Shown: piece after piece, positions 1 to 51,585 of the stretch | Numbering within the stretch: the stretch's first letter is position 1 | How the letters are laid out: each line of letters opens with the position of its first letter | Source: Cafeteria roenbergensis | Taxonomy: Eukaryota > Sar > Bigyra > Bicosoecida > Cafeteriaceae | Length of the DNA: 64,000 nucleotides | Direction of reading: 5' to 3' | Assembly (NCBI GenBank): GCA_008330645.1 | Contig: VLTN01000001.1 | Coordinates: forward strand, 620,001-684,000 | Program-made: the position numbers and the translations under genes | The notes under the pieces: model-generated | The model's database searches: none | What the model was told of the DNA's origin: nothing | Seen by the model: only the letters and a program-made list of their open reading frames with translations

Positions 1-394
1 AATCCGCTCTGTCGTCGCCCTCCACGAGTAGGCAGCTCGGGTCGTGTCCAGATGCGTGCGCGCTTGTCGGGCAGCGTTGTCGGCCTCGCGAGCCGCGGCG
101 TGCGCGATTGGTGGGCTCCGGTTTTGCAGTCAGCAGCAAGCATTGCGGTCCATTGGCTCTTGCTGGCCGGCCCCGCCCCGTCCGCGATCACGCCCGCGCT
201 CGCGCCCACACAAACCCCACTCAGTCCGAGACTGTGCTCGTCGTGCGGAGAGCTCACGAGCGGCTGTGCCCGCTGCGCCGCAGCGCTCTCCGGCGTGGCT
301 CGGCGGCCCCAGCCGGCGTGCGTGGCGGGCGCCTCTGCCGGGCAAGTGTCAAGCAGCTTGCGCCGGCCGCACCGCCTTGGGGCCCAGGCGCAGC
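1..394. other. Upstream region of the ZW10 gene
   Basis: No gene is recognised here. The frame of ZW10 exon 2 happens to be open back to position 52, but that part shows no ZW10-like sequence and lies upstream of the ATG at 395 that fits the spliced model. The stretch probably holds the promoter and 5' leader. I see no TATA-like box and no repeat. Confidence 0.4.
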
Positions 395-3300
395 ATGGCA
401 GCCGAGCCCCAGGAGTTCACGTTGTCGGATGTGACAGCTGCGGCCCTGGACGTGCTGGTGAGTGCCTGAACTGGAGCAGCGGGCGGCCGATTGCGCGCGC
501 AGGCGGGCGCCGTTTGCGGGCCGCGTGCACTGGCAGCGCTGCTCCGCCCGACCGAACCTCGCATCCGCTCGTCCTCTCCGCCAAGAACGTGGGGTGCTCG
601 CAGCCCAGCGCCGTCCGCACGGCAGTGGCCCACGCGCCGGACGCCAGCGAGCCGTTCGGCCCTCCGAGCGCGTCGCTGGAGGTGCAAGTGGCCGCCCTTC
701 AAGCCCGGCTAGCAACAGCGCTGGCGACCGCCCGCAAGGCCGGCCCCGCCCCCAGCTCCTCCCAGCGGGCCACCCGAAGCGCTGCCCGCGCCAGTGCGGC
801 GGGGTCTGCCGCCCAGGACGAGGCGCAGGCTCGAAACGCAACCGAGGCGGTGGCCCTGCTCTCGGCAGCGCATGCGGCCCTGACGGACTGCGACGCGGCC
901 TTGCGCCGCGGCCGGGCGGACGCAGCGGTTGGCAGCCTGGCGCGGGCTCGAGAGGCCGTGGAGCGGCTCGGCAGCCTGACGGACGAGGAGGAGCAGCTGG
1001 CGACAGGCAAGTCGGGAGCCGGCGGCGTGGCCGCCGCGCTCCCTGGCGCTCGCCGCGCCCTCCGGGCTCTGCGCGAAGCCATCTCCACGCGCCAGGCCCG
1101 AGTGGCTCACGCAGCGGCAACCCTGTGGGACGGCTGCTTCTCCATCGCTGCAGGGGCCCAAGCCCGCCAGCTGGTCGAGCGGGTTCGGGCAGCCGGCGTG
1201 GACGAGGCTGCGGCTGCGCGGGGCGCCGCAGACGAGCTCGACGCCGCAGACAGCGACGCCTCCCTGCTGGACGCCCTCGTGAGCGGCGTCGCAGCGGTGC
1301 TCCACGTGCAAGGCCCCCGCCTCCCCGGCGCGGGCGCCGCAGGCGTGCCCTCCTCCCCGTCCCCTGCGTGGGCTCTGGCTCTCCTTGGCCGCGTGGGAGA
1401 GCAGCACCAGGCCGCGGCCGTCGCGGGGTCGGCGTCCTCGCTGTCCTCGTCGCTGCTCGCGCCCGCCCTCGCTGGGGAGCTGGGTCTCGTTCCGGTCTCC
1501 CTGCCCGTCGCTCGGCGAAACCGCGACGAGTGCCTGATCGCGGCGATTGCAGCCTCCTCCTCGTCCCCCTCGCCGTCCCTGCCCTCGTCGCCGTCCCTGC
1601 CCTCGTCGCCGTCCGGGCGCGACGCGACGGCGGCAGCAGTCTCGCGCGTCGGCCGAACGCTGCGCCTGGTCGCCGACGCTATGGAGGCGGGGGAGCAGGG
1701 CGCGTCGGAGGAGGAGCGCACGCAGTCGGCGGCGGCAGCGGCGCGGTTTCTTGCCGCCGTGTGGTGGGGCCACGCGCTCGACGAGGACGAGTTTCGCGAG
1801 GACGGCGACGACGACGACGACGGGGCGGACGGCGGCGAGTCCGACGTGGGCGCTGACCGGGTGCCACGGGGGTGGACGGCTCTGGCGCCGTCGCGGCAGG
1901 CGCTGGAGGGGGCGGCGGAGGAGGCGCTGGACGCCGCTGACGCTGCATCCGCGCTTGACCAAGGGAGCGGGCTGGCGCTGGCGCTCGTGCGCGCGCTCAG
2001 CGACGGCTGCCCGGAGCGCGTGGCTGACGCCGCGACCCTGCAGGCTGCGGCCGACGCGGCGGTGGCTCTAGAGCAGTGGGTCCTCGTTGTTCTCGGCGCT
2101 GCGGCCGCCAGCGCCGCGCTGCCCGAGGCTGGCGGCGGCCACAGTAGTGACGACGCTGCGGGGTGGCACGCCCCGGCTCTGCTCGCGGCCGTGGCCGCGG
2201 ACCTGCCGCACCACGCCGCAGTGGCGCGGCGGCAGCGAGTGCTCGCGCGCGCGCGGGACATCTGCGTCGGCAGCGGTTTCGCGGCCGCAGTTCCCGTGGG
2301 GGAGGCGTCCCCAGCGGCGCCCGGCACCGTGACGGCCCTCGTGGGGGCCGACGTTGCCGCCACGCCGGGCGACGCAGCAGCCGCGGCGTCTGGCGCCGGG
2401 GGCGGGACCGCGGCGGACGCGAGGACGGTCCGCGTCACGGCGGACGGAGACTGGGAGGACGACGGCTGGGCGCAGGCGTGGGAGGAGCCGAGCCCGGCAG
2501 AGCAGCCGGCGCCCCACCCGCTGGCGGTCGACGACGCGGCCATCGCAGCGGCCCGCGCGGGGCCCACGGCAGAGGACGAGGCCGCTGCCGCGGCCGCCGC
2601 CGGAGCTGCCGCCGCCGCGGCCGCCCCCGACGGCGCCGCTGCCTCCAGCTCCTCCCTGCGCGCCAGAGTGCAGCACGCGCGCCTGCACGCGGCCCTTGAC
2701 CTGCGGTCGGCGCGGGTGACCGCCACCCCCTTCTTCCGGCTCGCGGCCTGCAGCGTCTCGCAGGCCGCCGCGGACGTCCTGGAGCTCGTCCGAGAGACGC
2801 TGCTAGAGGCCGCGTCGCTGGGCTCCGCCTCTGCCGGCGCGGGGGACGGCAAGTCCGGCGCAGAGGCGGCCATGCCCGCCGCCGCCCGGGAGCGCGCGGC
2901 CGCAATCCTCTTTCACGCCGCGCGCGACTGCATCACCGTGTACCGCGCCGTGGTTCCCGCCGCCTTTGGGGAGGAGCTTGCGAGGAGCCCTCGCGCCGCG
3001 GCGCTGGTGCACAACGACTGCCTCTTCCTCGCCCACCACGCCGTGACGCTGTGCCTGCGCGTCCAGCCCTCGTTGCCCGGGGCGCTGCGCAGCACGGCAA
3101 CGTTTGCCGACATGGTGCCCCCCCTGAGGGAGCTGGCTGAGCGATGCCTCGTCACCCAGGTGCGCGCGCAGCGGGAGGCCCTCCGCGCGGCGCTCAGGAC
3201 CCCGCTCGGCCCCGCCGGGCACCCGCTGGGGCCGGACACCCCGTGGCAGTCCGACGGCCCGCCCAAGCCGTCCGTGGACGTGGACGCATGCGCCGGTCGC

Positions 3301-3912
3301 GGCCCCGAGGCCCTGGATGCCGTGCTGGAGCGGCCCGTCCAGCGGGCCCTGGCGCTGGTGGACAGCGTGGCGGGAGTCTGGGCCGGCGTCCTGCCCAGCC
3401 GTGTCTTTCGCGCCGCCATCGCTCACCTCCTCGACACGCTCCTGTCCTCGCTGGCGGCGGCAGTGCTCAGCGCCCAGTTCCTGCCCCGACCAGTGGCGGC
3501 GGGCTGCGCCGCGGCACTCGCACTGGTGGTGGACAAGGTGCCGCTCGTGGTGGCCGCCGACGAGGCCACCGCCGCGGCCGCGGGGGGCGCGCTCGCGGCC
3601 TCACTGCGCCTGTCGGAGCCTGCGCTGCACGCGCTCATCCCTCAGCTGGCCAGGGCGGTACGGGTGCAGGAGCTGACGGCCGCCATCGGCTCGGGGGGCG
3701 TCGCCGCTCTCGAGGCAGCACTCCGCGCGCGGCCCGCCGGCGAGCTGTTCAGGCCGCCCACGGACGACGAGGGGCCGCTCTCGCGGATCGAGGCCGCCCG
3801 CCTCGTCCGGGCAGCCGAGGTGTCCCCCGACTCGGACGACGGCGCGGCCCGCACGGCCGACGTGGCGCTGCAGGATCGCAGGCAGGCGCTCGAATACGAG
3901 CTTTTGGAGTAA
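395..3912 (+). CDS. ZW10: ZW10 homologue (Dsl1/NRZ vesicle tether and kinetochore RZZ subunit)
   Basis: The proposed structure is exons 395-457 and 604-3912, with a 146-nt phase-0 intron (GTGAGT...CTCGCAG), giving about 1,123 residues against about 780 in human. The C-terminal half carries the ZW10 signature: HNDCLFLAHH near residue 824, followed by TATFADMVPPLRELAERC, which matches the human segment closely. The end (EGPLSRIEAARLVRAAEVSPD) matches the family's terminal helices. The N-terminal part is predicted helical (LEVQVAALQARL and onward), as in the family. Extra length comes from Ala/Ser/Asp-rich inserts around residues 330-700. Family knowledge: ZW10 tethers Golgi-to-ER vesicles with RINT1 and NAG, and recruits dynein to kinetochores with ROD and Zwilch. 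The ATG at 395 is chosen because only the 603 acceptor keeps the frame with exon 2. The C-terminal identity is firm; the N-terminus is less so. Confidence 0.9.
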
Positions 3913-9850: not shown

Positions 9851-12800
9851 TCAGGGGCTCCCCCCCAGCTCCGCCAGCTGCGCGGCGTGCACCAGCTGCA
9901 AGAGACGCTGCGCCGGCAGGGAAATGCCGAGATCCCCGCTCAGCAGCAGGCGCGTGCAGGCTACGCGGTCCGCTTCCCACAGCTGAAGCACGACCCTGAG
10001 CCCCGCGCCGGTTAGTTCTGAGCAGTCAGTGCCGGGCGGGAGCCCGTTCGACTCGAGCAGCGCCGCCAGCTCGTCGCCGGAACCGGCCCGCAGAAGCGGG
10101 CTGTCCCCGGCCGACCGGACCCACCCCTCGGTGGAGCCCCGGGTGCCGAGCGAGCCGAAAGCTGGGGCCAGGGCCGGGGCCGGGGCCGGGGCAGAGGCGG
10201 GGGTGGAGGGCGGTGCTGGTGCGGGCGCAGGGGCCGGTGCTGCGTTGGCCTGCTGAGGCCCGCGCGACGTGCTCGCGGCCGCGCCCCCCCCACCGCTGGG
10301 AAAGACTCCTAGCTTGGACAGCTGCTCCACCACCGATGACACGGAGTACTCGTAGCAGCTGTCGCCGTGCGGCTCCATGGCAGCGGGGCGCATATCGAGG
10401 TAGAGAGCCGAGCCGATGAGGAGTCCGAGCCAGTTGTCCGTTGAGTGCGGCTCGAGGAGCACCGGCACGATTGCTCGGCGCTGCATGGCCGCGAACTCGA
10501 GCTCCCGCTGGCAGTTGGTCGACTGCACGTATTCGGGACAGCGGAAGACGACGACTGCTCGGCTGCTGGTGATGGCCTCCGCCATGCGCTGGATGAGGCT
10601 GCCGTGCATCTGCTCAATGTCCAGCCACACGCGGAAGCCGCGCTCGGCCAGGCCCTTGGCGATGCGCCGGGGAGTCTCGAGCCTTGCCCAGGAATAGGAG
10701 ATCATGACGTCGAACTTGAACTCTGACGGGAGCGCGGGGGGCGGTCGCACCACCTGCAGCTTGAGCTCCTCGTCGATGCCCTCCCCGTCGCTGGCCGCCC
10801 CGCCGACCTCGGACTCGAACCCCACCGACTTGGCGACCCCCTGCTCGCTGCGATCGCAGTCCGGGCGCTCAGAGCCGTCCTCTGGAACGGACGACAGCGG
10901 GTTCAGCAGCGGCTGGCCGCGGCTGACGCTCGGCCCGATTGCTGGAAGGCCGACGGAGAATTCCGACTCGCTGGGGGCCGCATCGCCGTGGCCCACGAGA
11001 ATGGACCGCAAGCGCGAGCTGGTGTAGTGCTCGAGATCGACGTTGCAGGCGAAGAGGACGCCGTCCACGGCGTTGGCGAGAGCGGCTGCGGACTGGCCCA
11101 GCTCACTCGACGCCATCGCGGCGCTCAGCAGCTCGCGCCTGCTCCAATGGACGGTGGACCCCTCGCGGGGCGCGGTCCCCGGCGCCAGGAGGCGGCTGCC
11201 AGAGAAGCCGAGCCGGTGGCGGCTCGCGTGCGTTTGGGTTCCCGCCAACGCGCCGTCGCTCCCTGCGCTCGAGGCGGTGGCCGCGAACCCGCTCCTTGCC
11301 GGGCCCTCGCTGTCCGAGGAGCTGTCGCTGTCCGACGCTTGCGACAGCGCAGCGTTGAGGGACCCGAGGTTGAGCCCTCCCGCTGGGCGGTGGTTGCCGG
11401 CGAAACTGTCGTCGTCGACGTCGTCGTCGTCCTCCAGCCAGTCCGAGCCCGTCTGCCGCGCCCGCAGGCGCTCTGCCTGCAGCCTCGCCTTGACAAGCAG
11501 CATCCGCTTGCCGACAACTGTGCGCAGGTCGGCCGGCTTTGCAGTGGCCCGTTTGCCATCGCCCACCGAGGCGGGGAACGCGCTCGCCGCCTCGGAGCGC
11601 CTCCGGCGCGCGTCACCCTGCGAAGCGGCCGCGAGGCGCGGCGCGAGCCTTGCCAGGGCGTGGGCGGCGACCACGCGGGTCTCGAGCTCGCACTCCTCGT
11701 CGGCCACCACAGTGCAGAGCGAGTGGTGCGCGCCTGCCCGCACGAACTCGAGGCGGTTGCCCTCGTTCAGAGACAGGGTCCACACCGTGAAGGCGATCTC
11801 GTGAGCGGAGGACGTGTCGGACGAGCCAGTGGCAGCGCTGCACAGCTCCGCGGCCACGCGCAGCGCGATGCGGCGCCCCACGAAGGCGCCCTCTCCTTCC
11901 GTGGTCACCGGGGCGATGCAGCCCATCACGTTGGCGAGCTGAACGAGCCGCAGCGCCCGGTCCGGCTGGTCCACGGGGAGCAGCGCGGCGTGCCACATGC
12001 GCTGCCCGGCAGGCGCCGCGCGCTCCAGGAAAGCCGAAAAGGCTTCCCCGTCCCGCGGACCAGCTGCAGCGTCGTTGCCGTCGCCGCTTCCCGAGGCGGC
12101 TTGGGCCCGGCCTGCTGCGGCTGCCAGCTCGCGGTCTGCGGCGTCGCCCGCGGCGCCGGAGGGGCTCTGCGAGTGCGCCTCCGCGCCCACGATGGCTGCC
12201 TGCGCGATGGCAAAGGCGCCTGCGGCGTGAAGGGTTGACCGCGCTGCAGGCATCATGGCGGTGTTGGCGACGGCGAAGAGGCAGCTCTGCAGGATGTGGT
12301 CCAGCGAGACGATGCGCCGGCGCAGCACGGCAGCCGGGGCGGAGGGCTCCGCCGCCTTGTAGAGGGGGAGCTGCAGAACCGAGGCGAGCACGCGGACGCA
12401 GAAGCCGGCCATGCCGGAGCCGGCAGAGGCGGCCGCCCCGGCCTTGTTCTCATCCATGGTCTCCATGAACACGCCGAGAGCCTCGGCGAGGCAGGCGAGC
12501 TCCTCGTGCGGGATCGCCGCCCAAGAGACCCTGCCCGCCTTCGCCTGGGCCGACGCGACGGGCTTGCAGGGGGGGAGCAGGGCGAAGGAGGAGGAGGATG
12601 CGGATGCGGCGTCGGACGTGTCGATCACGGGGAGCGGGGGCAAGGAACGCCGAAGCGCGCGGCGGGCGGCGACGAACCACCGCCTCAGGGGCAGCACGGA
12701 GGTCCCGGCGGCCTCGGCGCCGGCTCGGCTCGTGGCCCGGCGGCCCATGGCGCCGATGATCTGCGCGGCCTCGAGCTTGCGCCTGGCCAGCGCGCTGAGC

Positions 12801-14302
12801 CTTGGGGGCATGGTCCCGAGAGCGCCGCCGCCGCCCGTGCGGGGGGTGCCGTGGAGGGCCCCCGCGCTGAGCACGGCGAACCTGTACGCGGACCTGCCGT
12901 CGTCGAGCACGTCGCAGAGGGCTGTGGCCGTTTGCCGCGCGCAGAGGAGGGCAAAGAGGGGGGGGTCCGAGCTCGCGGCCTTGAGGAGGCCGGTGAGAAC
13001 CACGGCTGAGAGGCGCCGGGCCATGTCCACCCACGCGAGGGGCGGGGAGGGCGCGGTTTCGCCGCCAATGGCGGCAACACACACCTGCTTCACGGTCTCC
13101 GCGCTGCCTTCGGCATCCCCGGAGCCGGGGGACGACGCGGCGGTTGCCCATCCGGGGGCCCCCACGTCGCTCCAGGTGACCCCGGGCACAGGACGGTCCC
13201 AGGAGAGGCCGTGGCCGGGACCCCGCGCGTCGGCGAGCGAGGGGAGCAGCGGGCCCTCTGCACCCCGCAGCTGCGGGGGGGCGTCAGAGGCCGCCGCGCG
13301 GCCGCCGCTCGCCTGCGGAGCCAAGGGGGGCGGCCCACCCAGGCGCGGCGGAGACGCGTCGGCGTCGCTCGGCGCGGCAGAGGCGCCGTCTGGCGCCGTG
13401 ACTGAGAGCATCGACCCCTGCCTCGCGAAACCGCCCTCGCTGGACACCACCGAGGCCTCGAGGCTGCGCGTGGCGCGCTCGAGGAGGAGGAAGCGGCTCA
13501 GCAGGCGGGCGGCAGACGTGCTGACCGCGGCACGGGACTCGGCCGCGCCGGACTCCACAGCGGCTCTGGTCCTTGCCACCGCGGTCGCGACGGCTGACCG
13601 CCAGCGCGGGTGGCTGGCCAGGCGGCGACGCTCCATGCGCTCCACAGCAGCGTGGCGGCAGCTGCTCTTGCGGGCGAACCGGAGGAGCTCCGCAATGCCC
13701 TCGAAGAGGTTGTCCGCGAGGCTGAGGACCCAGGCCAACGGCTTCCCCGAGCTCACTGGCTCTGCCTTGGCGCGCCCCCGAGCCACCTCGACGACCTCAG
13801 AGGTGCACCACGCAATGCGCTCTCCGATGTCGCACGCCAGGGAAGTGATGCCCGCGACGACGGCGCTGGAGTCCAGGAACGGCAGCGCCGAGTCACCGGC
13901 TGCGTCCCGGACCGAGTCAACCCGCTTCAGGAACGCGGAGAGCGCCCGCAGGCCCAGAAACATGGCCGTGGGGCTGTCGTGAGCCACGGCCAGGAACGCC
14001 GACGCAAGCAGCAGGAGCTGCCCAGCCTCGTCCGCGTCGTCGTGGCTGCCAGAGGCGGTGCTCGCAAACGCCTTGGCGGCCAAGCCAAAGCTGGCAACGA
14101 GCGGAAGCACCCGGACCGGAAAGAACACTTCCGCAGCGTCGCCACGCGTTCTGCGGAGCGACGCGTCGTCGCCGAGGCTCTCCGCCATGGCCATGGGGAC
14201 CACCAGCGAGGCCGTCGTGGCCTGGCATTCGGGCCCGTCGCCAGCGGTGCCGCGCAGTTGCGCCAAGAGCTCGCGGCAGCCCGAGTACGAAGGAGATTGC
14301 AT
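9851..14302 (-). CDS. Armadillo-like protein with C-terminal TIR and possible SAM-like domain
   Basis: The protein has 1,483 residues from the ATG at 14302. The first ~1,000 residues are helical and armadillo-like, clearest around ALRLVQLANVMGC and VVAAHALARLAPRLA. A TIR domain starts near residue 1196 (FDVMISYSW, with Asp1198), continues with GFRVWLDIEQMHG and reaches NCQRELEFA, where Glu1267 aligns with the catalytic glutamate of SARM1 (Glu642) and bacterial TIR NADases. A Pro/Ala-rich linker follows, then ~75 helical residues (DELAALLESNGLP to RLLQLVHAAQL) that may be a divergent SAM. SARM1 has the order ARM-SAM-TIR; here TIR comes before the last helical module. Inferred role: a regulated NAD-cleaving or signalling protein; activity is unproven. 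The frame is open upstream to 14548, with a possible acceptor near 14417, so a further 5' exon cannot be excluded. Confidence 0.85.
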   Translation of the reverse strand: MQSPSYSGCRELLAQLRGTAGDGPECQATTASLVVPMAMAESLGDDASLRRTRGDAAEVFFPVRVLPLVASFGLAAKAFASTASGSHDDADEAGQLLLLASAFLAVAHDSPTAMFLGLRALSAFLKRVDSVRDAAGDSALPFLDSSAVVAGITSLACDIGERIAWCTSEVVEVARGRAKAEPVSSGKPLAWVLSLADNLFEGIAELLRFARKSSCRHAAVERMERRRLASHPRWRSAVATAVARTRAAVESGAAESRAAVSTSAARLLSRFLLLERATRSLEASVVSSEGGFARQGSMLSVTAPDGASAAPSDADASPPRLGGPPPLAPQASGGRAAASDAPPQLRGAEGPLLPSLADARGPGHGLSWDRPVPGVTWSDVGAPGWATAASSPGSGDAEGSAETVKQVCVAAIGGETAPSPPLAWVDMARRLSAVVLTGLLKAASSDPPLFALLCARQTATALCDVLDDGRSAYRFAVLSAGALHGTPRTGGGGALGTMPPRLSALARRKLEAAQIIGAMGRRATSRAGAEAAGTSVLPLRRWFVAARRALRRSLPPLPVIDTSDAASASSSSFALLPPCKPVASAQAKAGRVSWAAIPHEELACLAEALGVFMETMDENKAGAAASAGSGMAGFCVRVLASVLQLPLYKAAEPSAPAAVLRRRIVSLDHILQSCLFAVANTAMMPAARSTLHAAGAFAIAQAAIVGAEAHSQSPSGAAGDAADRELAAAAGRAQAASGSGDGNDAAAGPRDGEAFSAFLERAAPAGQRMWHAALLPVDQPDRALRLVQLANVMGCIAPVTTEGEGAFVGRRIALRVAAELCSAATGSSDTSSAHEIAFTVWTLSLNEGNRLEFVRAGAHHSLCTVVADEECELETRVVAAHALARLAPRLAAASQGDARRRRSEAASAFPASVGDGKRATAKPADLRTVVGKRMLLVKARLQAERLRARQTGSDWLEDDDDVDDDSFAGNHRPAGGLNLGSLNAALSQASDSDSSSDSEGPARSGFAATASSAGSDGALAGTQTHASRHRLGFSGSRLLAPGTAPREGSTVHWSRRELLSAAMASSELGQSAAALANAVDGVLFACNVDLEHYTSSRLRSILVGHGDAAPSESEFSVGLPAIGPSVSRGQPLLNPLSSVPEDGSERPDCDRSEQGVAKSVGFESEVGGAASDGEGIDEELKLQVVRPPPALPSEFKFDVMISYSWARLETPRRIAKGLAERGFRVWLDIEQMHGSLIQRMAEAITSSRAVVVFRCPEYVQSTNCQRELEFAAMQRRAIVPVLLEPHSTDNWLGLLIGSALYLDMRPAAMEPHGDSCYEYSVSSVVEQLSKLGVFPSGGGGAAASTSRGPQQANAAPAPAPAPAPPSTPASAPAPAPALAPAFGSLGTRGSTEGWVRSAGDSPLLRAGSGDELAALLESNGLPPGTDCSELTGAGLRVVLQLWEADRVACTRLLLSGDLGISLPAQRLLQLVHAAQLAELGGSP

Positions 14303-15109: not shown

Positions 15110-17215
15110 TCAATCACGCGCTCGGAATCGCACTGGCATGCCCAGCAGCGGCACGGAGGTGATGCGCACCGAGCAGCCGTGGCGGTAGGAGGGGTCCAGT
15201 GCCCACTCCACGCGAGCGGCAAGCGCCGTCAGGGCCACGCGGGCCTCCATGAGAGCGAAGCGCTGCCCCACGCAGTTGCGCGGGCCTGCCGAGAAGGGCA
15301 GGAACTGGTAGGGGCTCAGCGCGGCCAGCCGCGGGCGCGCGGTCGTGACGGGGTCGTCGCCCGCGCCGAGGCCGCCAGCGGCGAGGCGGCGCATCCCGAG
15401 CGACGCCACCACGTCGTCGTCCAGCCACCGCGCAGGGTCGAAGTCGTCCGGGTCTGGGAAGAGCGAGGCCTGCCTGTGGGCCGCCGCGATGGGCACCGTG
15501 ACCTCGAGCCCCCTGGGCAGCAGCAGGCGCCCCTCCTTCCCCACGCGGACGTCCGCCACCACGTTGCGCGCGATGAGGCCGGCGGGCGGGTAGAGCCGCA
15601 TCGTCTCGTGGAGGATGGCCTCGCAAATGGGCAGAGCCTTGGCCAGGCTCGGGCTCTTGGCAAAGCCGTCGAGCCCCGCCGGGCGGCCGAGGAACTCCGC
15701 CGCCTCCGCGTGCAGGCGCCCCTGCCACTCGGGCGCCTGGGAGAGGCAGAAGATGGTCCACGTGAGCAGCTGAGAGGTGGTCTCGTGGCCGGCCAGCACA
15801 AACGTGATGGCCTGGTCGCGGATCTCCGAGTCGCTCATTCGAAGGGTGCTGGCCCGGGTGTGACGGGAGGACGGCGCCGGCGACGCTGCGGGCGCTCGGG
15901 CGGGGCCGGCCTCTGGTGCGGGCGCGGTGGCGGTGGGCTTGCCCGAGTGCGCGTCTGAGGCGCTGACGCCCGAGACCGCTGCCGAGGCATCGGCGGCGTC
16001 GGCGCCGGTGCTGTACTCGGCACGAGAGGCCTCCAGCTCGGCGTGGGACGTGGAGGAGCTGATCATGAGCCCCAGCAGGTCCCGCTCCCCCAGCGCCCCG
16101 CTCGCCGCCTCGGGCTCCGCGCGCCTCCGGACAATGACGGCCTTGCTCAGCTCGTCGAGCGCAGCCTGTGCGGCGTTGCGCTCCGCAGCCTCGGGGCGGT
16201 AGGCAAAGCGCTCCAGCCAGGGAACGAAGGCCACGAACGGCAGCCGCGTGAGGACGGCGTAGGAGTCGGCGATGCTGGCCTTGAGTGCGCGTTTGACGAT
16301 GTTGGCAGCTCCCGACGTGCCCGGCACGGCGGCCTTGGCGGCAGCGCTCCCGCCGCCCTCCCCGCTCCCGAACGCGCCCCCAAACGCGCTCTGGGCGATG
16401 ATCTCAAGCGTGAGGCCGCTCATTGCTGCACTCGCGTCCACCACCGGGCAGTCCCGGAAGCGAGCGGGCAGCGCCGGCGCGGGTCCGGACTCCTCCACCG
16501 GGGCGACGGGCACAGTGTAGCGGTCCGCGCGGTACAGCCACGCCGGCGGGACGTCCGGCCCCGCCAGCAGCCCGACCGTGTCGGCGGCGCAGCGCCCGAA
16601 AATGGGGGTCATGGCTTTGAGCATGTCGAAGGCAAACGCCTTGGCGACCAGTCGCCGCTGCAGCGCATGGGTGTCGCCCTCCGTGAGAAGGACGCTCGCG
16701 GGCCCCAGCAGCCTGCCGATGAAGTACTTCATGGTCGACGGCTTTTCAAAGTACGACGCCTTCCGCACGAGAATGTCGAGCAGAATGTCGGGCTCGGCCG
16801 TCTGCAAGCGGACCGAGGTGCCGAAGAAGTACACCATTGGCCCGTAGGACGGATCGCCGACCACCGACCGAGGCTCCGTGGCGGGAAGCTTCACGAGCTG
16901 CTCCGCAGTCCATCGCGCAGGCTTGCCGGCCTTGGTCGGCATGAACGCGGCCAGGTTCATTTCCGTGATGCCGGGGAACCGCCTGCTCCCGTGGTAAAGC
17001 GGAGCACACGGGCGAAGCTTGCCCACGCGCATAGTCCAAATCCCCAGCAGCGGCCAGAAGGGCTGCACGTGCGAGGCCCCGGGAAGCTGCTGCACGACCA
17101 CGCTGTAGCGGTGGAAGCATTTCCACACGGCAATCGCCAGTGCGCCTGCGACGAGCGCCACGAGCGCGCCGATGACGGCCGCAACGCCCATGGCCGCTTC
17201 CATGGCGTCGAGCAT
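15110..17215 (-). CDS. Membrane-anchored cytochrome P450
   Basis: The single-exon protein has 701 residues from the ATG at 17215. A hydrophobic anchor lies at the N-terminus (VIGALVALVAGALAIAVW). The I-helix motif AGHETTS begins at residue 475, the K-helix ExxR is Glu537 to Arg540 (ETMRLYPPAG), and the heme-binding loop is PFSAGPRNCVGQRF with the thiolate Cys648. All core P450 signatures are therefore intact. The order and spacing resemble CYP3/CYP4-type enzymes. Length exceeds the usual ~500 mainly through a low-complexity Ser/Ala/Pro/Thr insert of roughly 80 residues just before the I helix, plus other loops. The enzyme would be an ER monooxygenase using a P450 reductase; the substrate is unknown. 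The ATG at 17215 is chosen because it directly precedes the anchor; a second one four codons later is also possible. Confidence 0.93.
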   Translation of the reverse strand: MLDAMEAAMGVAAVIGALVALVAGALAIAVWKCFHRYSVVVQQLPGASHVQPFWPLLGIWTMRVGKLRPCAPLYHGSRRFPGITEMNLAAFMPTKAGKPARWTAEQLVKLPATEPRSVVGDPSYGPMVYFFGTSVRLQTAEPDILLDILVRKASYFEKPSTMKYFIGRLLGPASVLLTEGDTHALQRRLVAKAFAFDMLKAMTPIFGRCAADTVGLLAGPDVPPAWLYRADRYTVPVAPVEESGPAPALPARFRDCPVVDASAAMSGLTLEIIAQSAFGGAFGSGEGGGSAAAKAAVPGTSGAANIVKRALKASIADSYAVLTRLPFVAFVPWLERFAYRPEAAERNAAQAALDELSKAVIVRRRAEPEAASGALGERDLLGLMISSSTSHAELEASRAEYSTGADAADASAAVSGVSASDAHSGKPTATAPAPEAGPARAPAASPAPSSRHTRASTLRMSDSEIRDQAITFVLAGHETTSQLLTWTIFCLSQAPEWQGRLHAEAAEFLGRPAGLDGFAKSPSLAKALPICEAILHETMRLYPPAGLIARNVVADVRVGKEGRLLLPRGLEVTVPIAAAHRQASLFPDPDDFDPARWLDDDVVASLGMRRLAAGGLGAGDDPVTTARPRLAALSPYQFLPFSAGPRNCVGQRFALMEARVALTALAARVEWALDPSYRHGCSVRITSVPLLGMPVRFRARD

Positions 17216-17424
17216 CTGGGATTGGGGCCGTGCGGGGCGCCAGTGCGGCGAGGGCGAGCTCGCTGTTGAGCTCGTGTGCAAGATCGCCTCAGCCCTGTGT
17301 GACGAGTTTTGCCGGAGCAATCGCGAAGAACAGCGAACGATGCATTGGCGGGCAGCGAGTCACCATCACGTGCCACACGCAGCGCGTCGCTAAGGAATCT
17401 CGCATGCGCTCCAAGAGCGCGCGT

Positions 17425-21658: not shown

Positions 21659-23004
21659 ATGTCCGACGCTCAGCGCGGAGACCCAGGCCGGGCTGCGCCT
21701 CCCTCGGACAAGTCAAGCCCGCCTTCTCCCGTGTCGCCCCGGCGAGTGCGGCCGCAGGCAAGGCCCAATGTGTCGGCCCGCTCCGGCGCGCAGCTGCGGC
21801 AGGCGCTCTTTGTTCGGCTCAGCATGCCGGGCCAGTCGGCGCGGGCGCCGTCGTCCGCCTCGGAGCCCCGTTCGCGGCCTCGGTCCGTCAGCCACCAGCC
21901 CTCCATGTTCACCGTCGCGAACTTCATGATTGACGAGGTTGTGCTTGCCGACTCTGGGCCCTGGTCCGGCGAGGCCTCCAGACCCAGGAGCGCAAGCGCC
22001 GCGCAGAGACAAGTGAGGCGCGGGCAGCGGCCTTCCGTCGGCTCCTTCAGCGAATTGCTCGGGCATCGCAGCCCCGCCGCGCCCGCGTCCTTCGACCCGT
22101 CCGCGGTTGCCAGCGGCATGCTGGGCTCCGGCGCTGAGTGGAGCAAGGCGGCAGAGTCCGCCACCCGCGACGCCGGCCCGGGCCCTTCGCGCGCCCAGCT
22201 CGAGAGCGCCGCCCTCCCCGGCCAGGGCATGGGCGCCGCCGCAGCAGCGGGCAAGGCCTCCGTGCTGTCGTCCGCGTCTCGCCGCCGCAAGGGGGGGCGG
22301 TCCGGCCAGGAGCTGCGCATGGGCCTGCTGCGCAGGGTCCGCCTCTCTTCTCAAGCCTCGGAGGGCTCGACAGCCGGCACCGCAGCGTCCGCAGCAGGGT
22401 CCTCCGTGCCCTCTATGACTGGCGCGTTGGTTGGCGGCACGGCCGCCACGCTCCCCCCGGCGCTGCCATTGGCCGAAGCGGCCGCCACCGGCGTTTCCGA
22501 CGACCGCGCGGGCGCCCCAGGCGACGCGGCACAGCTGCAACCGGGGGAAGCGGGTGGCCCCACCCAGCCCCTCGACGACGCGTATGTGGGGGGCGCCGCG
22601 TATTGCCACGGCCTGCCCACCGTGCCGCCGCCCAGCGCCTCCTGCCGGGAGCGCGAGCGAGCCGCGGCGGAAGCGGAGGCGCACGCCGCCGAGGCACGGG
22701 ACCAGAAGCGGGCCACGGAGCGCATGCGGAGGCGCCTCCAGCGCCGGGCGCGAAGGTCGGCGGCGGCCAAGCGCGGGGCTGCCGTACCGGCGGAAGCAAG
22801 TTCCGACGCGCCGGCAGTGGCAGGGCGGGGCGGGCCGGCCTCCGGCGCAGGCGCAGGCGCAGGCGCAGGCGCAGGCGCAGGCGCAGGCGCAGGAGCAGGC
22901 GCTTCCTCGCCTGGCAGGGACGAGGGCGGACGGCCGCAGCAGCAGACCGAAGCGGCCAGTGGGAGCGGCAGCGCAGGCGACGACGACGTCGACGACGACG
23001 ACGT

Positions 23005-23035
<31 letters not shown>

Positions 23036-26000
23036 TCCGCTGAGAGCGTGCCGAGTGACGAGGACGAGGGGGACGCGCCGGACGGAGGCGGCACCCCGGG
23101 CGGAGACCTCGCTGCCCACCGAGCGCTCGGTGGCGTGTCCTCGCCCCTGGCGGCAGCGGAGGCCGCTGCCGCGGCAGCGGAGGCGCTGCGGCGGAGCAGC
23201 CTCCCTCACGAGGCCGTGCGCGATGCCATTGCGCTGGCCGTGCTGCGGGCTGACCGGCGCCACCGCTGGCACCGGCAGCAAGAGCGCTGCCCGTGGCGCG
23301 TGCTGGAGCACGGGGACTCCGCCTGGGTTCCGTCTGCCCGCGTGAGGGAGTGCCAGCACTGCGGGTCCAGGTTCGGCCTGCTCCTGCGGAAGCACCACTG
23401 CCGCCGCTGCGGCGCCGTCCTCTGCGCCGCCTGCTCGCCCTACAGGCCGGCCGGGGTGGGCCGCTGCTGCAGGCGGTGCAACGCCCTTGAGCGCGGCACG
23501 GTGTTCTGGCAGACCCCAGTGCTCCCCACCTACAAGCAGCAGCCCGCGGCGCCCGGCGACGCCCCGCCTGCGCCCCCCGCGGTTCCCGGCACGGAGCAGT
23601 GGGCACGGCTCGTTGACACGGTGGCTGCCGCCTGGCGCCGCGACGAGGTCACTCGCTCCAAGGCGCAGGCGCGCCCCAAGCCCTCCACGGCGGCGGCGGC
23701 CGGGCCAGGCAAGCCGCCGCGCGGCGCAGGGGGCAGCAAGCTCGCGGACCGGGGCGCCGCTCCTGCCGCCGACGACCCGGCCGACAGTCCCGCGGCCGCG
23801 GCCGCGCGGCGTGCCGAGGCCGAGCGAGCCCTCTCGCGCCTCGCGGCGCCCCCAGCCTGGGTCGTCTCGGCGGCAGGCCGCTCGCGCTCCCCCGCTGCCA
23901 CCGCGGTCGGAACCGTGGACTGGGCCGCGGCTGGCGTCGACGCGGACGCTTTCGCCGACGCAGCCTCGGCAGGCGACCTCGAGGAGGTGCGGAGCAGAGC
24001 CAGGCACGGGCAGAGCTTCCTGACTCCCATGCCCGGCACGGGGTGCACGCCGCTCCACGTGGCAGCGGCGGCCGACCAAGCCGACATCGTGGCAGAGCTC
24101 CTGCAGAGCGGAGGCGGGGACGGTACCGTGGCCGCCGCGGGGGTGAACTCGCGCGCATTCGACGGCAGAACCCCGCTTCACGCGGCTGCCGCGGCGGGGG
24201 CAGCGCGCGCGGCGGCCACGCTCGTCGCCTGCGGGGCGGACAGCGCGGCCGAGGACCTGGACGGGTTCACGCCGCTGGACCTGGCTTGGCTGCGCGGCCA
24301 CGGCCCCGCGATGACCGCGGCGGTGCCGCTGACAGCGGAGGGCCTGAGGCTGGCCCGAGCCGCAGACGCAGCCGCCGCGCGAGCCAGGGCCGGTGCCGGG
24401 GCCGGCGACTCCGCCGCATCGGCGGCGGCTTCGGCAGGGGCGCTGTCAAGCTCCATCCTGGGAGCGGCCATGGCTGCGCTGCGGCAGGTGGGCGACGGCA
24501 ACGCTTGGGGCGCTGGCGAGGAGGGTTTGTGCCGCGCTGCGGCGGCGCTCGAGGGGCCGCTCGACGCCTCGACGCTCACCCTCACGGGCGAGGAGGTGAC
24601 TGCCGCGCTGGGGGGCTCGTCGATGGCGACCCTCTGGGCATCGCAGGCCGCGGAAGCCAGGGCTGCGGCCGCGGCTGCTGTGAAGGCCAAACTTGCGGCC
24701 GAGGCCGAAGCCGCACGCCAGCTGGCGGCCGCGCGGTGGGGCGGGGACGATGCCTCGCGCCGGCGGAGGGCGGCGGCGGTTGCCGCGGCGCTGGGGAAGC
24801 CTCTGCCCAAGCCGCAAGGCGGGAGCGCGCCACTGCACGCGGATGCGGACCTGGCGTCCTCAACCGCTCTCGAGGGCAAGACTGACGAGGACGCGGACGT
24901 CGGACAGTGGGCCTGCGGGGCCGCCGCCGCCTGCGACAGCGTCGCGAGCAGCGCTGGCGCCGCGGCTGGTCTGGCCTCGATGCCGGACTCGCCTGGCTCC
25001 GGCCCGGCCTCGGCCATGGCAATGGACCCGCCCCCGCCCCGCACTCTGACGCTGAGGATGCCCCCGCGGGCGGAACTGCTGGAGAGCGGGCTGGGTGTGC
25101 TGGACGCGGCAGCGCAGGCACTGCAGGCCAACCTCATGGCCGTGGACAACGCCGGGGCGCGTGCGGCGCAGGCGGACGAGTGGCGCGTGGAGGCGGGCAG
25201 CGCCGCCGCGGGCACGGGGCCAGTGGGGAGAGGCGCCATGGCCGCGCGGTTCGAGGCGTGCGGGCTGCTGGACACGTCTCGCAGGCACGCGATGAGCACC
25301 AGCGCGTCGGCGAGGCGCCTCGTCGGCGAGACGTGGCGGCTCGGGCACTGGTACGGCGGCGACGCCGACCTCAGCACCCTCATCAGCGAAATCGCCGAGG
25401 AGCGGGGCCTCGTCAGCTTCCGCGCCAAGCCCATCCTGGCGCAGCTTGCTGAGGAGGGGGAGGAACCGGAGGAGGCGGAGGAGGAGGAGGCGGAGGAGGC
25501 CGCAGTCAACGGGGACCACCACGGGGCGCGGCAGCACGCCGAGGCAAGGGCGGGGGCGCAGGCTCCGGCGGCGGGCGGGGCGGGGGCCAGGGGCCAGGAG
25601 AAGGCATGGCCAGCGGGGCGCAGCGTGGCGCAGCAGCCGTCTTCGGCGCCGTCGTCGCCGTCCACGTCTGGCAAGCGGCAGGCCGCCGCAAGCGGCGTTG
25701 TTGCCTCCTCTGCAGCCGCGGACGCGGGCTCGCCCCGAGCCGGTCCCTCGACTCAAGGCGGCAGCGACGTGCTGTCTTCCAGCGAGCCGCACTCCGGGAC
25801 CTCAGGCGCTCCGTCCCCTCGTGCTGGGAGCGCCCCGCCGTCCCCGGGCCGCACGGCGGCTCCTGCCCGGTCCAAGCTGGGCGAGGCACCTGGCAGCACC
25901 GGCGGGGCGGCGAAGAAGGCAGCGGCGCAGCCCTCGTCGCCCTCGCACGGGCCGGCGCCGCCCGCCAGCGCCTCCCGCCCTGTCCCGGTGGCCTCAGATG

Positions 26001-26038
26001 CGGAGCTGCGGCACGCGCCGTTCAGCCTGCGGGGCTGA
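21659..26038 (+). CDS. FYVE zinc finger and ankyrin-repeat protein
   Basis: The single-exon protein has 1,459 residues. A FYVE-type finger lies at about 556-625: CQHCGS begins with Cys565, then the basic RKHHCRRCG core, CAACSPYRP and CCRRC give four cysteine pairs. The usual WxxD before the finger reads WVPS, so the aspartate that helps bind phosphatidylinositol 3-phosphate is lost. Ankyrin-like repeats follow at about 757-890 (GCTPLHVAAAADQADIVAEL; GRTPLHAAAAAGAARAAATL; GFTPLDLAWLRGH). The rest is low complexity, including a Gly-Ala repeat, an Asp-rich run (near 440-460) and a Glu-rich segment (near 1265-1280). A conserved-looking patch, GETWRLGHWYGGDADLSTLI, lies near residue 1222. Expected role: a scaffold at endosomal membranes. 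The ATG at 21659 is the first in frame. Confidence 0.87.
22844..22891 (+). repeat. (GGCGCA)8 repeat coding for Gly-Ala
   Basis: Eight perfect hexamer copies inside the FYVE/ankyrin gene, translated as alternating glycine and alanine. Perfect DNA identity suggests recent slippage expansion. Confidence 0.9.
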
Positions 26039-45343: not shown

Positions 45344-47958
45344 ATGCACGCTTCTGCAGCGCAAAAGCGACAGGCGACAGAATGGGTCGAGGCGCCACGC
45401 GGAAAAGCTTCACGGTCCGAGACCGACGAGAGTGAGCCTCCCGCCCCCGCGCAATGCCCCCGGCCTGGCCTCTCGCCTTCTGCCGCAACGAGCCCAACAC
45501 GCCGGCGCCAGTTCGCCCACTCCGGCCAAAGGCCGGTTCAGAGCTGGCTGGGCAAGAAGGCCGGCCCCCGTCGGTTAGCTCCAATGATCGGCAAGGTCGA
45601 TTGGGCCGCTGGCCAATCAGGTCGACCGTCCCGGGCGCGGCCGAGGCGGTCGCGTGTGGGCTGCCGCGCGATGAGCCGGCTTCGGCATGCGACAAGCTGG
45701 GGGTAGCCATCCAGCGCTCTCTATCCGGGGGCATGAGAGCGGAGGAAGGGGGTTTTGCTTTGGAGCCGTCTGAAGCCGGAGCACGAACACTCATCACGCT
45801 GCGCGCGGCTGCGTGCCCCGCAGCGCGCCCTGGCAGCCCCCATCAGACCCAACCCTCGCTCCTCGTGCCGTGTGGGATTGCTGACTTTGCCTCTGCCCAG
45901 GTGCGGGCGCCGCAGGCAGGCGCGCTGCGCTGGAAGCGGACACCGCCCGCAGCGAGCCGAATCAGCTCAGCGAGGGCTCGGCATCTCCTCACAGCGGCGA
46001 CCACTGGGACAGCGCCGGAACCCGCCCGCGCAAGTGGACGGCCGCCGAAGACTCGGCCCTGCGCAGCGCGGTGGCGGAGTTCGGCGAGCGGCGCTGGAAG
46101 ACCATCGCGGAGCGGGTTCCAGGGCGAGACCACGTGCAGTGCCTCCAGAGGTGAGAGCGCGCAGCTGCCTTCGTTTCCTGCCCGCCCCCGGCGCCCTTCG
46201 CCCCCCAGCGCATGCCCCGCGTGCGCCTGGAGGCGCTGCGAGGCCCGGTTCCTCCCAGCCCGGGCAGGCGCGCGCGAGCGGGCGTGGGCGGCGCAGGCTG
46301 GGCGAGCCCCGGTCTGCCGGCACGAACGGCCGCGCGGCGCCGGAGCTGCGGGAAGTCCAGTCGACGGAAACGCCCGCCGCTTCGCGCGCGCAGCTGCCAC
46401 CGCCCCCAGCGCCCCTGCGCCATGCAGGCACCCGTTCCCCCCGCCCCGGGCCCGTGCCGTCCTGCCTCTGTGCCCTGGGAGTGCGGCGGGCGGGTGGCTG
46501 GCGCGGGGTCGGGCTGGCGCTGGGCGCCCCGCTCCTGCCAAGTCTCGGCGGCCGTTGCCGCTGTCGGTTTCCGCGGCTCCCCCGAGCTTGCCGCCCGAGC
46601 TTGCTTGGTTGGGACCGCGGCACCGACGTCCTTCCGACTGCGAGCCCCTTTCCGCGCCTTGCCCCTCGCTGCCCCTCGCTTGCAGGTGGCGCAAGGCCTT
46701 GCAGCCAGGCCTGAAGAAGGGGCACTGGAGCCGCGAGGAGGACGAGATCCTCAAATCTGAAGTCGCCTGCCGTCCCAGGAACTGGGGGGATGTTGCGATC
46801 CACATCCCGGGGCGCACGGCAAAGCAGTGCCGCGAGCGCTGGTCCAACCACCTGGACCCTTCCATCAAGCGCTCCGCGTGGACTGCCGAGGAGGACGCCC
46901 TTCTGGAGCGCCTGGTGGATGCCATCGGATCGAAATGGGCGAGCATCTCCCGCAAGCTCCCCGGGCGCACGGAAAACGCGGTCAAGATTCGCGCAAAGAG
47001 CCTGGAGCGCCAGCGGCGCCGCGGGGAGCGCGCTCGCTCCCCCTCCATGACCAGCGCAACGGCAGCCGCCGCAGTCGCAATGTCCTCGGACGGGCCGCGC
47101 GGCCACTCGCGCCCTGGCTTTGCTGCTGGCGTCGGGCCGTCGCCGGAGGCGCACGGGTACGGCGGCCACCCCGCCTTCGCCCACGGCGCGGCGCACCTCT
47201 CGGCAGGAGACTCTCTTGCGCCTGTTCATCCGGCCTCCGGCGCTGTCCTGCCGATGACCTCGCCCGGCGGCATGGGGTCGAGCGGAGCGCTGTCACCGCC
47301 GCGCCCCGAATGGGCAGGCACTTCCCAGCACCCCCAGCTCCTGGGGCGCGGGGTCTCCGGCCCGGCAAGCTGGCACGGCGGCGCGCTTGCGCCTCCCTTC
47401 GTCCACACGGGCGCCCACGGCCACTGGCCCCCCGCGCAGTCGGGACCGCCCGGCCCTGACGTTCCCACGCCGCGCACGCTCTACTCCAACGTGTCCTCTC
47501 CCGGCCAAGCCCAGCCTGGCATGGCGACGGTGGGCGGCGAAGGCGCCCCCCCGCCCGTGTCGTACAGCCTGGCCCCGCACCCGCAGCAGCTCTCGGCCTC
47601 CGCGGCTTTGTCGGCGGCTGCCTCGCGAGGCCAGCCCGCGAGCTCCGGGGCCATGGCGGCGCGCTACAGCCCGGATGGTCCCACTCCCCGCTTGGCCGTG
47701 GCCCCGATCCCTGCCTCCGAGGCGTTCCTCGTCGGCGACATGCCCGAGGCCTCCCGCTACGGACCTCACGGCCTTACTGTGGAGCACTACGCAGCCTACC
47801 CGACCCACCGCTCCGCGCCATCGGACCAGTCGATGGGAGCCTGGTCCTCTTTCCCCGCGTCGTCCCCTCCTGGAGCCCCGAGTGCCTTCGGCGGCCAGCA
47901 CTCTGGCTACGGCGTGGACCCATCCGGCGCCGCGCACCACGCCTGGGCCCAGCACCAT

Positions 47959-47989
<31 letters not shown>

Positions 47990-48918
47990 TCATGGCCCAG
48001 CAGATGCACCACCACCAGCGAATGCATGATCAGCAGCAGATGCAGCTCTACCATCACCAGCAGCAACAGCAGCACCAGCACCAGCAGCAGCTCCGCCACC
48101 AGATGCTGCTGCGCCACGCTAGCCACGGCTCGGCCGACTGCGCTACGCCCGCCCAGGACGCGACCGGCAGGCCCGTCTTCTCGGGCTTGGAGGGAGCAGG
48201 AGCCGCCCCAGCCTCCTCAGTGGGCGGCCAGGCGCCCTGGGCTCCGCGCACCTTTGCTGACGGCCACGGCGGCAGCGGCCCGCTCTCCTCCGTGAGCTCC
48301 AACGGCTGGGGCCATGGCGGCGGTGGCGGTGGCGGTTTCGCGCCCACTGCTGGCCTTCGCGGGGCAATCGGCTCGGCAGGCGGGCCGCGCGCGAGCTCCG
48401 TTGCTGGGCGCGATCAGCCGCTGATGCCCTGTGGCCACAACCTGTCGGGGGCGTCGGAGCGCGCCGGCTCGGTTGCCGAGACCGCAGCCAGAGCTGCGCC
48501 GGACTCTGTTGGCTCCTCCATGCACTCCGCCGACGAGACGTCTGCTGCCGGGTGCGCGCCGACTATGGCTGGCCCTGCCGCTGCCGCGTCGGGCCATCCC
48601 CTCGCCGTGGCTCGCGGAGTGTCCAGCCGCTCTGACGCGGAGGCGACCCTCGGCCTCACTGGCGCCAACGCTGTGCCCCCCATCATGGTGCTCCGCGGTT
48701 TCAGCGCCGCCAAGCCAGGCAGCCAGTTCGAGCCCCTCCCCATGGTGTCAGCCAAGGGTGCCGAGCCGCCCGCCCCTGAGACCCCCCGCATCCCCGGGCC
48801 ATCCGAGGCGGCAGTGCGCCAGTCCCGCGCAGCCCTCGACTGCGCCAGCGCCGGAAAGGCCGTGATCGTGCCCGCCGTGGTGCTGCCCTCTCCCAGCGGC
48901 TCCGCGATGAGGGCTTGA
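45344..48918 (+). CDS. Three-repeat (R1R2R3) Myb transcription factor
   Basis: Exons 45344-45431, 45901-46150 and 46686-48918 join in phases 1 and 2 (GTGAGC...GCCCAG; GTGAGA...TTGCAG), giving 856 residues. R1 begins at Lys74 (KWTAAEDSALRSAVAEFGER) and crosses the second intron at QRW; R2 reads GHWSREEDEILKSEV and ends GRTAKQCRERWSNHLDPSI; R3 reads SAWTAEEDALLERLVDAIGS and ends GRTENAVKIRAKSLER. The regularly spaced tryptophans of all three repeats are present, with the usual replacements in R3. This is the animal c-Myb and plant 3R-Myb type, which regulates cell-cycle genes. The remaining ~630 residues are Pro/Ser/Gly/His-rich with a Gln/His tract near residue 540, as in activation regions. 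Exon 1 (MHASAAQKRQATEWVEAPRG) is chosen by splice consensus and phase and has no domain. Confidence 0.88.
47958..48100 (+). repeat. CAA/CAG-rich tract coding for poly-Gln
   Basis: Runs of CAACAG and CAG with interspersed CAC and ATG codons, inside exon 3 of the Myb gene. The translation is glutamine and histidine rich. Interruptions make it less prone to slippage than a pure CAG run. Confidence 0.85.
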
Positions 48919-49662: not shown

Positions 49663-51585
49663 CTAGTCCGCGCCTTGCGGGGACGCGCGCTCGGCGTCAC
49701 TGGCCTCTGGGCACCCCTCCGCCTGCTGCTCCGCCCCGGGCGCTGCGGGGCGTGCCTCCTCAGCCAGCGCTCCTGGCTCTGCTTCGGGCTCCGCACTTGG
49801 CTGGCCGTCCTGGTCACCGCCGCTCGCCGGGGCCGGGACTTGGCTCACCGGGCCCTGGCCTGCAAGATCAGCAGCCTCGGCCTCGCCGCCTGCAGGGCTG
49901 GAGTCTCCCGATTGGCCGGCCTGGGGGGCTGGTTGCTCACGGGCACTGCCGGCATCCTCTGCTGGTCGTTGCGCCGCAACGGGAGCGAGTTCTGCGGCTG
50001 TCGGCTCCGCCCTTGACCCTGGCGCCTCTGGTTCCGGCACCACCGACTCGGCCGCTGGCACGTCCGTTGAGGTCACAGCCGCAGTTGTCCCTACAGTTGC
50101 AGTTGCAGTTGCAGTTCCAGCCATCGCTGTCGTTGCGGCCGCAGCCTGAGCCTGCCGCTGCTTCTTCCACTCCGCCAGCTGTCGCCTCCTCGCCGCCTCC
50201 GCCTTGGCCGGCCGGCAGTCCGCCCAGCGCCGCCCCGCCCCCGCCACCACCGCCCCCGCAGCTGCCTGCACGGGGGAGAGCCCCAGCGCCCTGGCCTGGA
50301 CCCTGCTGGGGGCAAGCCGCTCCAAGGGCGGCAGAGGCTGCTGCTGCTGCTGCTGCTGCTGCCTCCGCTGCTGGGCGGCAGGCAGTGTGCCGCCGCCACC
50401 GCCGGCTTGCTCAGGGCCCGTCTCCAGGCCGGGCGCGAAGGACACGCGAGACCCAGGGCGCTCAGCCTCGGCGCCGCCCCGTCCCCAGCCTCGAGCCGGC
50501 TCCGCGCTGGCCAGCCCTTCCCGGGAGGCGCCGTCCCGCCCAGCCTCGTGGCCCTGCAGCGGCCCGAGGGGCTGGGAGCGAGGGCGGGCCATGGAGTCCT
50601 CAGACGCCTCGCCGGCTGATGCCAGGCTCCAAGTCGACGCGGTTGTTGTGTTGGGCCGAGGAGGGGGAAGCGGTGCTCCGCGACCGGCTCTGCGGGGAAG
50701 CCCGTGAGAGCCGATGGGATCCAGCTCCCCCGCTCGGCGCACGGGCAGCGTGGCTGCCGACGCAGACGCCGATCCTTGGTCGGGGTAAGAGGGGGAGGCG
50801 GGGGCGGCGGAGGGGGGCGCGAGGCACTGCCAGTCCTGGCCGCTGGGCGCGGGACCCGGCGAAGCCTCGGAGCCGAGGGAGCCGCTTCCGCTCGCCCTGT
50901 GGGCCTCCGCGTGCTCCCAGGGCTCGGCCGCCGCGTAGTCCTGGTACTCGCGTGCGCCGACGGCCGCGGCGGCTGCTGCTGCGAACCCCCCGCCTGCGCC
51001 CGTGTCTGGCGAGAGCGAGGCCCGACGAGCGGCCGCGCGAACCTCGGCCACGGAGGACGACGCGTCCACGCCCATGGCCCCCAGCAGGTCTGCCGAGCTC
51101 TGGCGCTTGAGGACCAGGGAGCGGTAAAACGCAGAGGTGGCCAGCCACTTGGCTCGCAAGGCGCGCTTGCGCTTTTGCAGCTGAGCCTTGACTTTCTCGA
51201 GGTTCTGCTCCTGCTGCTGCAGGATGAGCTTGCGCCGCTCCTCGTTCTCCACACGGCGCTTGGCGTCCCGCAGCTCCGACCCAAAGGTGAAGTCGCGGAA
51301 CATGACGAAGATGCCGGAGCCGGGAGCGTACTCGTAGCCCTTGCTGAAGGTGGCAATGCGGCGGTACTCGGAGATGGCGCGGTCCTCTGGCCCAGCGAGC
51401 GCCGCAGAACGGCCGAGCATCTGGCTGTTCATGGTGTTGAACCACGGTGCACTGGCGGCCGCAGCATCCAGCGCGCGGTCCAAGGCTGCACCAGACATTC
51501 CGTTGCGCCCGCTCGACGCCGCGGAGTGAACACTGGCCGCGGAGCTCGAAGGTGCGAGTGGGCGGATCTCGGGGAGGTGCGCCAT
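49663..51585 (-). CDS. Ala/Gln/Pro-rich protein with a conserved-looking coiled-coil block, unknown family
   Basis: The single-exon protein has 640 residues from the ATG at 51585. The most gene-like part is residues ~70-165: ISEYRRIATFSKGYEYAPGS and GIFVMFRDFTFGSELRDAKR, followed by a basic coiled coil (EERRKLILQQQEQNLEKVKA, then RALRAKWLATSAFYRSLVLKRQ). The remainder is low complexity: Ala-rich and Ser/Pro-rich stretches, a poly-Gln run, an AT-rich hexamer-coded segment (Thr/Ala/Val) near 50080-50120, and an acidic Ala/Glu/Pro tail. I do not recognise a family; a microtubule- or flagellum-associated role is a guess based only on the coil. Start and end are consistent with a single exon. It is divergent from the PPR gene with 533 bp between starts. 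Confidence 0.6.
   Translation of the reverse strand: MAHLPEIRPLAPSSSAASVHSAASSGRNGMSGAALDRALDAAAASAPWFNTMNSQMLGRSAALAGPEDRAISEYRRIATFSKGYEYAPGSGIFVMFRDFTFGSELRDAKRRVENEERRKLILQQQEQNLEKVKAQLQKRKRALRAKWLATSAFYRSLVLKRQSSADLLGAMGVDASSSVAEVRAAARRASLSPDTGAGGGFAAAAAAAVGAREYQDYAAAEPWEHAEAHRASGSGSLGSEASPGPAPSGQDWQCLAPPSAAPASPSYPDQGSASASAATLPVRRAGELDPIGSHGLPRRAGRGAPLPPPRPNTTTASTWSLASAGEASEDSMARPRSQPLGPLQGHEAGRDGASREGLASAEPARGWGRGGAEAERPGSRVSFAPGLETGPEQAGGGGGTLPAAQQRRQQQQQQQQPLPPLERLAPSRVQARALGLSPVQAAAGAVVAGAGRRWADCRPAKAEAARRRQLAEWKKQRQAQAAAATTAMAGTATATATVGTTAAVTSTDVPAAESVVPEPEAPGSRAEPTAAELAPVAAQRPAEDAGSAREQPAPQAGQSGDSSPAGGEAEAADLAGQGPVSQVPAPASGGDQDGQPSAEPEAEPGALAEEARPAAPGAEQQAEGCPEASDAERASPQGAD

Follow-up and report, generated by a model that had tools for sequence, protein, structure and literature searches.

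Among described TIR proteins, the animal SARM1, which has homologues in choanoflagellates, combines an ARM domain with tandem SAM domains and a C-terminal TIR domain; its ARM domain is inhibitory (PMC8635717, PMC7688312) and its TIR domain must self-associate for activity (PMC8635717). Arm domains are also combined with TIR in several choanoflagellates (PMC6040629), so that an ARM-TIR protein in a protist would not be a new kind of protein. Outside the usual models, eukaryotic TIR proteins are frequent and have received little study (PMC13142454): the TIR atlas in that paper includes eukaryote-only clades (3 and 9-13) that are uncharacterised, and reports that the TIR_2 model matches nearly every clade; the word 'stramenopile' is absent from its main text. 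The protein described here resembles those clades in having a protist TIR matched by TIR_2. It is encoded in a window of 64,000 nucleotides (contig VLTN01000001.1, positions 620,001 to 684,000, assembly GCA_008330645.1) from the marine bicosoecid flagellate named Cafeteria roenbergensis in PMC6972860 and C. burkhardae in PMC8547959. A first-pass annotation of the window had read it as an ARM-TIR protein with a helical, SAM-like tail, i.e., as SARM1 parts in another order. No literature on this gene was found among the open-licence papers searched.

The open reading frame (9851..14302, minus strand, as are all features of the protein given below) runs from an ATG at 14302 to a stop at 9851-9853 and encodes 1,483 amino acids, coordinates and length first given by the annotation and reproduced by our ORF listing and translation. 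The same frame stays open 5' of the ATG as far as a GTG at 14548, and the 5' end is therefore not fixed. From 14260 down to 10061 the codon-position GC pattern is coding-like, with GC3 of 0.83-0.93 and GC2 of 0.44-0.73 in 14 blocks of 100 codons; the block 14560-14261, mostly upstream of the ATG, has GC3 of 0.79 and GC2 of 0.71. This pattern argues against the least probable of the readings weighed here, a gene-model artefact, with a shorter true TIR gene preceded by a second gene or by an ORF that high GC keeps open by chance, as does an armadillo-like repeat (see below) that sits in the same frame as the TIR. An artefact would be favoured by the high GC of the locus (67-76% in the 4-kb blocks of the window), which yields long chance frames, antisense ones included, and by an intronless model in a species whose genes have a published average of 1.67-1.89 introns (PMC6972860).

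The TIR domain itself is well established: Pfam TIR_2 matches residues 1199-1305 (10388..10708) with an E-value of 7.3e-20 and 72.1 bits, well over the curated cut-off of 28, and PF01582 (TIR) remains below its own cut-off (14.6 vs 21.3 bits). In the whole genome (36,303,456 bases in 167 contigs), TIR_2 finds two places, the window TIR (E 5.7e-20) and a weak one on another contig (E 3.4e-4), and PF01582 finds the window TIR only (E 0.035). The second TIR_2 match, below cut-off (E 2e-4), lies inside a 2,102-residue frame (L012:2391-8696, minus strand, G000:C31) that by eye shows hydrophobic stretches, a large insertion within the TIR and a motif, SPNCVTELL, resembling STNCQREL of the window protein. 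Three partial queries, the TIR and residues 1398-1483 (both at E up to 1) and residues 600-892 (at E up to 0.1), returned no second copy from the own genome, the TIR query giving one further match at E 0.37.

No relatives were found in plasmids or viral contigs with the whole protein as query, none in viral contigs, plasmids or phages with the TIR, and nothing in viral contigs with a two-row TIR alignment, while of the 29 pattern matches from one scan of prokaryote genomes a single one proved to be a relative, namely an archaeal TIR with 33% identity; as these collections are prokaryotic, plasmid, viral and phage and hold no eukaryote genomes, the results have no bearing on eukaryotic relatives. 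The archaeal protein (L018:1918-3582, from a Methanotrichaceae MAG) joins a metallophosphoesterase-like region, recognised by eye, to its TIR domain, and a second TIR_2 match lies about 240 bases from its gene on the same contig. Among structures in the PDB, phmmer with the TIR (E up to 5) listed 19 sequences, comprising Cat1, Toll-related proteins, TLR, MyD88, plant and bacterial TIRs and, by chance, bicaudal D; SARM1 is absent from these 19. The bacterial defence model SAVED_TIR (TIR type rings) also matches the domain (E 6e-6). The likeness to bacterial defence TIRs (SAVED-TIR, ThsB, Cat1) lies in the TIR, where profiles and sequences match weakly, whereas none of the other domains of those systems was matched in the window protein.

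Compared directly by BLASTP, this TIR and that of SARM1 are 25% identical across 97 aligned columns (E 3e-4 for this single comparison, 27.7 bits), and the two are thus related as TIRs. The first-pass annotation had singled out E1267, the first glutamate of NCQRELEFA (codon 10502..10504), as aligning with the catalytic residue of SARM1, and it does pair with E642 in all three alignments made (MAFFT and two pairwise). Also kept are Y1203 (Y568), D1228 (D594), E1230 (E596) and, after a gap, G1234 (G601), and E1318 aligns with E686 in MAFFT and one pairwise alignment, outside the BLASTP alignment. Mutation of Y568, D594, G601, E642 or E686 lowers SARM1 activity (PMC8266388), as does mutation of E596 (PMC7688312). 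Several of these residues are shared by TIRs in general. The glutamate on its own is no argument for activity, because over 70% of TIRs possess it and its presence does not follow reported activity (PMC7075850).

Other SARM1 positions have diverged. W638 pairs with N1263 in MAFFT and with a gap in both pairwise alignments, H640 pairs with Q1265 or a gap depending on the alignment, H685 is replaced by Y1317, and D627, K628 and C629 are kept in none of the three. About eight residues ahead of the glutamate are absent, SARM1 630-637 according to MAFFT, while the pairwise alignments open two four-residue gaps; the latter, unlike MAFFT, pair C1264 with SARM1 C635, so that the position of the gap is uncertain. 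Of the features of a SARM1-type TIR, W638, D627-C629, the EKLEAG BB loop and the C-terminal position are not found in this protein. By sequence, this TIR falls outside the SARM1 type. With the SARM1 TIR as query at E up to 1, nothing was returned from this genome, not even the window TIR, an empty answer that carries no weight as the search had no positive control.

A single-sequence model of residues 1184-1483 (mean pLDDT 43.7) alternates strands and helices in its first half, which is TIR-like at low confidence, and places E1267 (model residue 84) in a helix, at a confidence that allows no statement on the pocket. Foldseek with the TIR model returned nothing at E 0.001, the best match being the RRS1 TIR (E 0.016). 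This model and that of the N-terminal half described below are both poor, since with no relatives for an alignment each was folded from a single sequence.

Our preferred explanation, held tentatively and with slightly less than even confidence, is that of a regulated, self-assembling TIR protein of non-SARM1 type that cleaves NAD+. Sensing or restraint would fall to its long N-terminal half, which is predicted to be helical and may be an alpha-solenoid, of degenerate armadillo or another type; upon a trigger, the TIR domains of several chains would self-associate, and their assembly would signal through NAD+ cleavage via E1267. We infer all of these steps, i.e., solenoid regulation, trigger, self-association and NAD+ cleavage, the regulation wholly so. 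NAD+ cleavage by this TIR is likely enough to test, though unproven, the TIR_2 match and the residues kept at SARM1 activity positions (Y1203, D1228, E1230, G1234, E1267, E1318) speaking for it; the armadillo-like repeat, the SAVED_TIR match and the dependence of SARM1 activity on TIR self-association (PMC8635717) also count for the explanation as a whole. Against the enzymatic version, to which the stated confidence applies, stand the six positions not kept (W638, H640, H685, D627, K628, C629), the residues missing before the glutamate, and Dictyostelium TirB and TirD, which gave no NAD+ cleavage in the assay of PMC13142454. Only just behind it in probability comes a non-enzymatic TIR scaffold that would recruit other proteins by TIR-TIR contact, with E1267 having a merely structural role. 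The missing SARM1 tryptophan, histidines and loop residues fit such a scaffold, as does the commonness of the glutamate in TIRs without reported activity (PMC7075850), and the second place that TIR_2 matches, more weakly, elsewhere in the genome could supply a partner; it is less readily reconciled with the Y, D, E, G and E kept at SARM1 activity positions, and the few TIR matches in the genome (PF13676 and PF01582 searched) are somewhat against a TIR network.

Restraint in such a protein would come from the region upstream of the TIR, read at first as a very long armadillo-like region, of which one weak repeat is visible. In a semi-global scan, residues 844-892 (11627..11773) score 22.34, a value reached by 0/300 shuffles (the best shuffle also rounds to 22.3) and by 0/40 in an earlier run, while nine other window frames score at most 19.1; the piece 841-892 alone gives z 4.6, with 1/1,000 shuffles. 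The scan, tried after the profile test had failed, used 16 of 30 profile repeats, and all 14 held-out real repeats outscore residues 844-892 (range 28.7-46.2). Pfam Arm is detected neither in the whole protein nor in seven pieces of it (residues 291-399 being covered only in the whole), and the 88 places listed for PF00514 in the genome at E up to 10 include none in this protein. Nor does a profile built from 30 of these 88 own-genome repeats raise the protein above its shuffles, which match it in 132/500 cases by whole-sequence score, in 189/500 by best stretch and in 26/60 by window; six separate windows reach at least 3 bits vs a shuffle mean of 1.7, and none reaches 5 bits vs a shuffle mean of 0.5.

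With residues 797-896, chosen by eye, phmmer at E up to 10 listed three sequences, all Vac8, which is an armadillo protein; the best E of 0.034 is a sum over several weak stretches, the strongest of 5.5 bits. A second armadillo-like stretch seen by eye at about 668-705 was rejected: its surroundings score just 15.8 in the scan, and phosphite dehydrogenase is all that phmmer lists for residues 600-710. A single-sequence AlphaFold2 model of residues 590-911 (11570..12535; mean pLDDT 48.2) is nearly all helical at low confidence and has no Foldseek match at E 0.001. The N-terminal half appears helical and is perhaps a solenoid with one plausible repeat, which falls short of a demonstrated ARM domain. 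A far clearer armadillo protein exists elsewhere in the genome, in a 4,140-codon frame (G000:C2:623533-635175, minus strand) that accounts for 35 of the 88 PF00514 places.

On the other side of the TIR, an Ala/Pro-rich linker (residues 1335-1381, 10160..10300) is followed by a C-terminal segment (residues 1405-1480, 9863..10090) that is mostly helical in the low-confidence model of residues 1184-1483, with four helices and two short strands, and is not recognisable as SAM. The proposed SAM-like tail finds no support in profile comparisons. With a profile of eight own-genome SAM places the tail scores 0.0 bits, equalled or exceeded by 238/1,000 shuffles, and the whole protein 0.3 bits, whereas the eight places themselves, left out one at a time as a positive control, score 16.0-64.7 bits each. 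By alignment score the tail has z 0.6 (250/1,000 shuffles), vs 10.3-24.4 for six real SAMs, namely those of the eight with at least 54 residues. The eight are the places found by Pfam SAM_2 and hence clear SAMs, and lower scores would be expected of a strongly diverged SAM. None of the eight lies in this protein, and Pfam SAM is found neither in the whole protein nor in the seven pieces (residues 291-399 again only in the whole); searched by itself at E up to 10, the tail has no match to any Pfam family, and a 184-residue C-terminal piece matches only DEC-1_N in Pfam (E 1.3) and two aminomutases in the PDB (E 0.34 and 1.3). The tail may be a heavily diverged SAM, to which the sole pointer is a GL...LGI...RLL pattern seen by eye.

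A reading as reordered SARM1 requires both ARM and SAM; the TIR and its aligned glutamate stand, the ARM amounts to a single sub-threshold repeat and SAM is not seen, and the reading therefore mostly fails. We consider it very unlikely that the protein is a true SARM1-like enzyme in which ARM precedes the TIR and a diverged SAM behind the TIR forms the oligomer: the one armadillo-like repeat, the four tail helices of the low-confidence model and the pattern seen by eye point that way, against the SAM scores of the tail, the absence of any Pfam SAM and a TIR unlike that of SARM1. Somewhat less improbable, though still unlikely, is that this stramenopile evolved a solenoid-gated TIR NADase independently of SARM1, its oligomer forming via a novel helical module at the C-terminus, set off by a flexible linker, instead of via SAMs before the TIR.

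The preferred non-SARM1-type protein shares with SARM1 a TIR with an aligned glutamate and perhaps a solenoid upstream, and differs from it in that no SAM was found before the TIR or, by Pfam, anywhere in the protein, where SARM1 has a tandem SAM between ARM and TIR, that the TIR is not C-terminal, and that W638 and the loop residues are not kept. If the armadillo reading holds, it has the same combination as the choanoflagellate proteins, whose Arm is reported as a domain (PMC6040629) whereas that of the window protein is below every profile threshold. With its armadillo weakly visible and its SAM tail unsupported, it is best taken as a further member of the little-studied eukaryotic TIR proteins. 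The bearing on the evolution of SARM1 control envisaged in the first-pass annotation finds no support, the TIR not being of SARM1 type, and as a test of that evolution the protein adds little on present evidence.

Nothing immune-like was found among the 11 window frames scanned for domains. The neighbours at 52-3912, 15110-17320, 21659-26038, 45454-48918 and 51447-56522 carry, in this order, ZW10_C, a cytochrome P450, FYVE with ankyrin, two Myb stretches and PPR repeats.
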